This document shows positions 10,766 through 22,523 of a DNA stretch of 64,000 nucleotides, piece by piece. Where the stretch lies: the NCBI GenBank assembly GCA_902626065.1, contig CACODT010000001.1:1-64000 (forward strand), in the 5' to 3' direction. The position numbers were made by a program, and so were the translations under genes. The DNA is from an uncultured Candidatus Actinomarina sp. (GTDB lineage: Bacteria; Actinomycetota; Acidimicrobiia; Actinomarinales; Actinomarinaceae). Position 1 is the first letter of the stretch. Each line of letters begins with the position of its first letter. The notes below the pieces were generated by a model. That model searched no databases and was not told the origin of the DNA. It was given only the letters and a program-made list of their open reading frames with translations.

Positions 10766-11153
10766 AGTTGCAATTGTTTATTCAGATTATTACAAAGATG
10801 TTACTAATGGTCTTTTAGATGGTTTTAATAAATCAATTGATAAAACTTTTGAATGTGAAAAATTTAAAGTAAGTGGTAGCTGGGAAATCATATACAAAAT
10901 TAATTCACTCATAAAGGAATACGATAAGTTTGTGGCTATTGGTGTCATTGTTAAAGGTGAGACTGATCATTATGAGTTTTTATCTTCAAGTATTGCTAAT
11001 GAATTATTAAATATAACAACATCCAAAAATGTATATATCTCAAACTGTGTCTTAAACGTACTTAATATTGATCAGGCGACTCAAAGAGCAGGATCTGAAA
11101 ATAATAAGGGTTCAGAGTCTGCACAAGCTTTAAATAATCTTTTTATTACATAA
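10755..11153 (+). CDS. ribH: 6,7-dimethyl-8-ribityllumazine synthase
   Basis: GVIVKGETDHYEFL, QATQRAGSENNKGSESA; in-frame ATG at 10755 fits better than the TTG at 10719. Confidence 0.85.
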   Translation: MKNKVAIVYSDYYKDVTNGLLDGFNKSIDKTFECEKFKVSGSWEIIYKINSLIKEYDKFVAIGVIVKGETDHYEFLSSSIANELLNITTSKNVYISNCVLNVLNIDQATQRAGSENNKGSESAQALNNLFIT

Positions 11154-11167
11154 TAAAATTTAGGATA

Positions 11168-11250
11168 TATAATTAAAATCAAGCGAACGATGTTCCACCT
11201 ACTGTGAAAAATAGTATGGTAATTAGAAACAGCTTCGTGCTGTTTTTTTT
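11168..11250 (+). promoter_or_regulatory. infC operon promoter -10 (TATAAT, 11168-11173) and about 70-nt structured leader
   Basis: TATAAT in the ribH-infC gap followed by three potential hairpins, the last with a U-tract. Confidence 0.55.
11229..11250 (+). terminator. Intrinsic terminator/attenuator directly abutting infC ATG
   Basis: AACAGC-TTCGT-GCTGTT stem followed by T8, then ATG at 11251. Confidence 0.7.
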
Positions 11251-11781
11251 ATGAAAGGAAAACAAATAGCAGAATTAAATGTTAACGAAGAGATAAAATC
11301 CAAGAAACTATTGGTAATAGCACCAGATGGTGTTCAAGTTGGAGAATTAGAACTTAAGAAAGCCCTTATTTTGGCTGAAGAACTTGAACTTGATCTTGTT
11401 GAAGTCTCTCCGGAAAGTAAGCCTCCTGTTGCTCGATTGATGGATTATGGTAAATATAAATATGAGCTTAATCAAAAAGCAAGAGAGTCAAGGAAAAAAC
11501 AAGTAAAAATTAATGTAAAGGAAATACAACTTAAACCAAAGATTGATACACACGATTACAAAATTAAATTAAATCAATCAAAAAAGTTTTTAGAAGATGG
11601 AGATAAAGTGAAATTTACTATGAGATTCAGAGGTAGAGAAGCAGAATATCCTGAATTAGGACAAAAAATTTTAGATAATTTTAGAGATGAACTTGTTGAC
11701 CTAGCAATGGTTGAATCTACTTCTAGACCAGATGGTAGATCATTAACCATGGTACTAGCGCCTAACGGAGGAAAAAGATGA
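11251..11781 (+). CDS. infC: Translation initiation factor IF-3
   Basis: LNVNEEIKSKKLLVIAPDGVQVGEL, KFTMRFRGREAEYPELG. Confidence 0.95.
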   Translation: MKGKQIAELNVNEEIKSKKLLVIAPDGVQVGELELKKALILAEELELDLVEVSPESKPPVARLMDYGKYKYELNQKARESRKKQVKINVKEIQLKPKIDTHDYKIKLNQSKKFLEDGDKVKFTMRFRGREAEYPELGQKILDNFRDELVDLAMVESTSRPDGRSLTMVLAPNGGKR

Positions 11782-11966
11782 AACATAAAACTCATAAAGG
11801 AATGAAAAAAAGAATAAGAGTAAGTGGTTCTGGTAAATTCATGCGAAGGCGTGCTCACAGATCACACTACAAATTGGCTAAAGGTAGTAATTCTTGGTCA
11901 AGACTAAAAAGAGATGTTGAATCATCTAAGGGTGATTCCAAAAAAATAAGAAAGTTGTTGAGTTAA
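11778..11966 (+). CDS. rpmI: 50S ribosomal protein L35
   Basis: MKHKTHKGMKKRIRVSGSGKFMRRRAHRSH. Confidence 0.95.
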   Translation: MKHKTHKGMKKRIRVSGSGKFMRRRAHRSHYKLAKGSNSWSRLKRDVESSKGDSKKIRKLLS

Positions 11967-12326
11967 ATGGTAAGGGTAAGAAGATCTGTAAGCAGTAGAA
12001 AATCAAGAAAAAAAATTCTTAAACAAGCCAAAGGTTATACAGGAGCTAGAAGTAAACGTTTAAGAACAGCTAAAGAACAAGTGATGCATGCAGGCAATGA
12101 CGCCTTTGCACATCGTAAAGACAAGAAAGCAACATATCGAAAGATTTGGATTTCTAGAATTAATGCAGCATCAAGACAACACGGTTTGTCTTATTCAAAA
12201 TTTATAAACGGTTTAACAAACGCACAAGTCAAAGTTGATAGAAAAATATTGGCTGATTTAGCTATCAATGATCCGGATGGATTTAAGAAACTTGTAGATT
12301 TAGCTAAAAAAAATATAAATGCCTGA
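11967..12326 (+). CDS. rplT: 50S ribosomal protein L20
   Basis: RVRRSVSSRKSRKKILKQAKGYTGARSKRLRTAKEQV. Confidence 0.97.
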   Translation: MVRVRRSVSSRKSRKKILKQAKGYTGARSKRLRTAKEQVMHAGNDAFAHRKDKKATYRKIWISRINAASRQHGLSYSKFINGLTNAQVKVDRKILADLAINDPDGFKKLVDLAKKNINA

Positions 12327-17626: not shown

Positions 17627-19165
<1,539 letters not shown>

Positions 19166-19210
19166 TAGAACTTTTAGTTCTAAGGTTAAACATCGGTTGT
19201 CTACAAGACT

Positions 19211-19235
19211 GATACATTACTCAGCTGTGAAAAAG
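19211..19235 (+). other. 3' strand of the 16S pre-rRNA processing stem
   Basis: Complementary to 17470-17494 over about 25 nt with few mismatches. Confidence 0.75.
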
Positions 19236-19236
19236 T

Positions 19237-19257
19237 CATTTGGCTTTTTGAAAATTG
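19237..19257 (+). promoter_or_regulatory. boxA-like element in the 16S-23S spacer
   Basis: CATTTGGCTTTTTGAAAATTG repeats the leader element. Confidence 0.55.
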
Positions 19258-19269
19258 TATAGCAAGCGC
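19251..19269 (+). other. 5' strand of the 23S pre-rRNA processing stem
   Basis: AAAATTGTATAGCAAGCGC pairs with GCGCTTGCTATAGAATTTT at 22363-22381. Confidence 0.75.
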
Positions 19270-19288
19270 AATTGCAAAGTATTCATAT

Positions 19289-22347
<3,059 letters not shown>

Positions 22348-22362
22348 GAAGACGGCGTATGA

Positions 22363-22381
22363 GCGCTTGCTATAGAATTTT
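22363..22381 (+). other. 3' strand of the 23S processing stem
   Basis: Complementary to 19251-19269. Confidence 0.75.
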
Positions 22382-22394
22382 TAAGAAGTTGATT

Positions 22395-22512
<118 letters not shown>

Positions 22513-22523
22513 ATTTAATGAAG

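Follow-up and report, generated by a model that had tools for sequence, protein, structure and literature searches.

A short covarying infC leader in Candidatus Actinomarina: a probable L20-type attenuator followed by a likely AUA start codon

Locus and anatomy of the infC leader

The gap upstream of infC in an uncultured Candidatus Actinomarina sp. contains a promoter-like -10 element, a structured leader, and a Shine-Dalgarno site. The analysed stretch of contig CACODT010000001.1, 64,000 nucleotides in length, is referred to as the window. Its infC protein shows up to 99% identity to Candidatus Actinomarina, a low-GC marine actinomycete of the Acidimicrobiia (Actinomycetota). The gene order is rib genes, infC, rpmI, rplT, pheS, and pheT, of which the final five overlap or abut, and a ribH-like gene ends at 11153, just 5' of the leader. 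The reading that we consider probable is that of a minimal L20-type transcription attenuator of approximately 70 nt, combined with an AUA start of infC that would permit self-control by IF3. The window furthermore carries a 16S-23S-5S rRNA operon (17629-22513) with a 16S-23S spacer of approximately 134 bp, and no tRNA genes were found by ARAGORN across the entire 64 kb. The features of the locus, all on the forward strand, are as follows.

11145-11173, +, promoter-like site: weak -35 ATTACA (11145-11150), 17 nt, -10 TATAAT (11168-11173)
11181-11184, +, invariant AAGC, at which the transcript is predicted to begin
11185-11195, +, hairpin I (GAAC-gat-GTTC), with one unpaired C after it at 11196; other genera show this grammar too
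11197-11220, +, hairpin II (ACC-UACU...AGUA-u-GGU), bulged at 11217; two of its pairs change on both sides
11227-11250, +, predicted rho-independent terminator, hairpin AACAGC-TTCGT-GCTGTT plus U8; loop UUCGU; a two-sided change
11254-11259, +, Shine-Dalgarno site AAAGGA, 6 nt before ATA 11266; AAGGAG in many relatives
11266-11781, +, infC (IF3), most likely with AUA start 11266-11268, not ATG 11251
11778-11966, +, rpmI (L35), overlapping or abutting the upstream gene
11967-12326, +, rplT (L20), overlapping or abutting the upstream gene, inside the operon

Judging from the position of the -10 element, which is conserved in the genus alignment, transcription of the leader would start near 11181. 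All 45 Actinomarina infC loci that were read, representing 30 distinct leader sequences, possess AAGC, hairpin I, hairpin II, the terminator, and T8, and the terminator loop UUCGU is conserved across them. In the alignment of these leaders 98.5% of the cells pair, and three pairs show two-sided changes, namely pairs 20-36 (U-A to C-G in 8 rows) and 21-35 (A-U to G-C in one row) of hairpin II and pair 51-61 of the terminator (A-U to G-C in 7 sequences). The folding z-score of the leader is -2.2. A covariance model of the leader, R1, detected one copy per genome in 34 Actinomarina genomes and no match in 254 other Acidimicrobiia genomes. The sequence elements listed in a preliminary description of this DNA (TATAAT, GAAC-gat-GTTC, ACC-TACT...AGTA-t-GGT, AACAGC-TTCGT-GCTGTT, a T8 ending at 11250, and ATG 11251) were all found, and its proposal of a structured attenuator ahead of infC finds good support in a conserved, covarying, and terminator-ended RNA with compensatory changes in relatives and a plausible candidate antiterminator.

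The hairpin and its U8 were not called by a simple terminator scanner. The likely cause is that pairing of the stem may run on into the U tract, leaving too few T. Regarding mimicry, the likeness of the leader to 23S or 16S rRNA was no better than that of shuffles; a candidate 8-base match to 23S rRNA, AACGATGT, was rejected, as the matched bases vary within the genus. A further candidate pairing, between CUGU of the hairpin II loop and ACAG of the terminator arm, comprises just 4 bp and was dismissed by eye.

Start codon of infC

In the preliminary description, ATG 11251 served as the start of infC without a separate Shine-Dalgarno site, the terminator was considered fused to this start codon, and folding of the terminator was proposed to gate both transcription and initiation. 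An in-frame ATG is indeed found in this species and in roughly twelve of the 30 distinct leaders, but the remaining ones carry TTG, as many relatives do at the position of ATG 11251, or nothing. In 8 of the 30 there is no in-frame ATG, GTG, or TTG upstream of the AUA, and in seven of these eight leaders the frame is shut by a stop lying just a few codons upstream of the AUA. The AUA codon (11266-11268), situated approximately 6 nt past AAAGGA or AAGGAG, is by contrast invariant at all 30 distinct Actinomarina loci. It has a good Shine-Dalgarno site (compared with the 16S rRNA 3' end, ...CACCTCCTTTCT), whereas ATG 11251 has none, and this site is separate from the U tract, which ends 15 nt before the AUA codon. 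Because ATG 11251 is not conserved while the Shine-Dalgarno site and the AUA are invariant, the fusion of terminator and start codon was rejected; we regard it as very unlikely, and the supposed double gating is unsupported. Most likely, on the evidence of this comparison, infC begins at the rare AUA 11266.

A similar situation was observed outside the genus, in a contest in which ATG, GTG, TTG, CTG, ATA, ATT, and ATC were admitted as in-frame candidates behind a Shine-Dalgarno site. The best start linked to such a site is ATC in 51, ATA in 11, ATT in 7, CTG in 1, and TTG in 1 of 71 infC genes of other genera, i.e., AUC, AUA, or AUU in 69 of 71. Nearly all of these genes (L040-L110) appear to have a strong Shine-Dalgarno site followed by AUC, AUA, or AUU as start codon. 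For S. aureus, an AUA start of infC was determined by ribosome profiling, and the authors suggest that IF3 regulates its own synthesis there, as it does in E. coli (PMC13009471).

Related leaders in other genera and the Rfam L20 leader

The comparison with Rfam ribosomal-protein leaders suggested in the preliminary description gave no match of the Actinomarina leader, neither at the gathering threshold nor at E<=10 in the region. Similarly, a search of 148 Acidimicrobiia genomes with the L20_leader model RF00558 yielded scattered weak matches below the cut-off, none of them at the Actinomarina infC leader. Nevertheless, the likeness in anatomy is considerable. In the Firmicutes, the RF00558 leader occupies the same place, directly upstream of the same operon infC-rpmI-rplT, and consists of AAG, hairpin I, an unpaired C, an RCC...GGY hairpin II, and then a terminator, all of which also occur in Actinomarina, where an alternative fold is predicted. 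Differences are given by the length, approximately 70 nt versus 127 model positions, and by hairpin II, with a one-base bulge in Actinomarina and a 3x2 internal loop in the RF00558 consensus; in other Actinomycetota leaders this internal loop is variable or the helix is continuous. Moreover, the leader scores below the RF00558 threshold and occurs in the Actinomycetota, not the Firmicutes, with L20 as candidate ligand only. Due to the score below threshold and the lack of the internal loop in hairpin II, it is not filed as a member of RF00558, although by sequence it resembles the L20 leader in both anatomy and location. For B. subtilis, L20 is described to bind at the H1/H2 junction and to stabilise the terminator (PMC6097659); the same 2018 paper states the element to be narrowly distributed in the Firmicutes. 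By analogy, the architecture shared with the Bacillus-type leader strengthens the L20-type control that the preliminary description had guessed.

A common 5' domain was observed in infC leaders of other genera, consisting of AAGN, a hairpin, a single C, and an ACC that pairs with a later GGU. Examples, each upstream of infC, are:

L100:196-252, common 5' domain
L076:2827-2877, common 5' domain
L061:2833-2895, common 5' domain

The domain occurs in infC leaders of Actinomycetota, Firmicutes, and one Gemmatimonadota MAG (among L020-L110), and it is mostly unrecognised by Rfam. For L100, a Syntrophomonadaceae genome, the infC leader is an Rfam L20_leader match above threshold with the same place and layout. 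A descriptor of this grammar matches 42 of 65 infC leaders of other genera, compared with 1 of 653 control segments taken from these loci. In 340 kb of the genome that carries the window, both strands included, it has just two matches, one of which is located exactly at 11181. In alignment A4, comprising 35 domains of other genera with the interior of hairpin II shortened to ten bases, strong covariation was observed in both helices, though the rows had been selected for having helices.

The covariance model R2 was built from A4 and contains no Actinomarina sequence. With filters off, it ranks 11181-11220 first in the 64-kb window, with a modest score of 8 bits, corresponding to E = 3.6 for 64 kb and E = 0.011 for the 201-base leader region; with default filters no Actinomarina leader was found. 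In 148 Acidimicrobiia genomes, some of which may share species with training rows, 19 of 22 matches at E<=0.1 and 30 of 49 matches at E<=1 are located on the correct strand no more than 250 nt upstream of infC. Homology of the actinomycetotal and firmicute leaders, as opposed to convergence, is favoured by their identical AAG-hairpin-C-RCC grammar but stays tentative, since R2 assigns the Actinomarina leader so low a score.

Leaders of mycobacteria related to M. tuberculosis show the AAGU-hairpin-C-ACC...GGU layout. In L096:2847-2911 and L102:2857-2911, an extra element, GGCCGUGA...GGUCGGUAU, is situated near the terminator, which has the loop GCUUCGUGC; this element resembles the hairpin II loop and the terminator loop of Actinomarina (R1 matches). 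For M. tuberculosis itself, an infC 5' UTR of 326 nt was reported, with a read level 2.6 to 4.9 times that of the gene; the study mentions the Bacillus L20 case by analogy (PMC3207917). The excess over the gene is consistent with attenuation, but this UTR is far longer than the Actinomarina leader. A literature search, incomplete as it was, found no paper describing an infC L20-type element in the Actinomycetota.

Proposed mechanism, alternatives, and significance

An alternative fold was predicted from the partition function and energies by folding the leader only up to the terminator loop, before the 3' arm exists, and by averaging over the 30 sequences:

11183-11238, +, candidate antiterminator: GCGAA (11183-11187) with UUCGU (11234-11238) and UGUU (11191-11194) with AACA (11228-11231)

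The mean probabilities of these pairs range from 0.47 to 0.76, and by energy the fold beats hairpin I in 28 of 30 sequences and loses in two. It is predicted to be mutually exclusive with hairpin I and the terminator, and it would explain the conserved loop UUCGU. Due to the fact that no two-sided covariation of its pairs was found among the 30 distinct leaders and that shuffled 5' ends give equal sequestration in 3.5% of cases, the antiterminator stays a prediction. Because of the mutual exclusion, termination would be favoured wherever hairpin I is held, e.g., by L20 at the H1/H2 junction.

Comparison of sequences establishes the conserved leader and its covarying helices, the Shine-Dalgarno site with its likely AUA start, and an architecture that recurs in infC leaders of other phyla. 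The site of transcription start, termination and antitermination, the role of L20 as ligand, and autoregulation by IF3 are inferred, in the following manner. The element would represent the 5' leader of an infC-rpmI-rplT(-pheST) operon. If the emerging 5' end folds into hairpins I and II, the terminator is free to form; if it pairs instead with the 5' arm and loop of the terminator, RNA polymerase may read through. By analogy to the Bacillus leader, free L20 would bind at the junction of hairpins I and II, the proposed site, and hold hairpin I, causing termination, so that excess L20 would shut off its own operon. Separately, infC would be translated from the rare AUA behind its own Shine-Dalgarno site, and IF3, by rejecting non-AUG starts, would limit its own synthesis.

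An attenuator of the same anatomy may also respond to a different ligand (IF3, L35, or a small molecule) or be constitutive and only set the expression level. The candidate status of L20 in the Actinomycetota and the divergence of hairpin II from the RF00558 consensus leave room for such a case, as does the reported homology of the infA and infC 5' UTRs of M. tuberculosis (PMC3207917), for which L20 alone is not an obvious explanation. It is nonetheless unlikely, though not negligible, since the part conserved across phyla is the H1/H2 junction grammar, the place of L20 binding in B. subtilis, and since rplT belongs to the operon.

The remaining alternatives assign the same bases to other functions. 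The preliminary description noted a five-codon ORF, MFHLL, and this mini-ORF (ATGTTCCACCTACTGTGA) was confirmed at 11190-11207, but it is not conserved. An ATG...TGA frame encoding MFHLL or MFHPL is intact in 23 of the 30 distinct leaders and broken in 7, with AAG as first codon in L014, L016, L116, and L118, TTG in L008 and L126, and a lost stop in L011. Moreover, it lacks a Shine-Dalgarno site, the RNA ahead of its ATG would be only about 9 nt long, and its bases are explained, on sequence grounds, by hairpins I and II. Control of the terminator by translation of a leader peptide is therefore extremely improbable. Nor do we give much credence to the hairpin and U8 being the terminator of the upstream ribH operon, with infC transcribed from elsewhere. 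Its location just past the ribH-like gene would suit this role, but everything from promoter to terminator forms one conserved leader that covaries as a unit and is immediately preceded by a conserved -10 element, and infC has similar leaders in genomes in which another gene lies upstream; such an arrangement has hardly any probability.

The L20-type reading combines aspects of known systems. In E. coli, L20 represses rpmI-rplT, the same regulator and genes as proposed for Actinomarina, by means of a long-range pseudoknot plus a hairpin inside the operon, which act on translation and spare infC (PMC10931766), whereas the Actinomarina element precedes infC and ends in a predicted terminator. 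IF3 autoregulation via a non-AUG start of infC (AUU in E. coli; AUA in S. aureus, PMC13009471) has its likeness in the Shine-Dalgarno site and invariant AUA of Actinomarina, where the AUA is combined with an upstream attenuator and IF3 autoregulation is putative.

The broader view, for and against which the chances seem about equal to us, is that the L20-type infC attenuator is old and widespread in the Actinomycetota and other phyla, and that Actinomarina carries a near-minimal version of approximately 70 nt, in which L20 site, antiterminator strand, and terminator share the same few bases and the AUA start adds self-control by IF3. The likely start of infC is corrected for the Actinomarina group, in which a start at the upstream ATG or TTG would lengthen the protein by five residues. 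As a compact RNA, the leader would indicate to what size a switch of this kind can shrink in a streamlined marine bacterium, and the comparison suggests that a ribosomal-protein attenuator previously assigned to the Firmicutes alone is widespread in the Actinomycetota, mycobacteria included.
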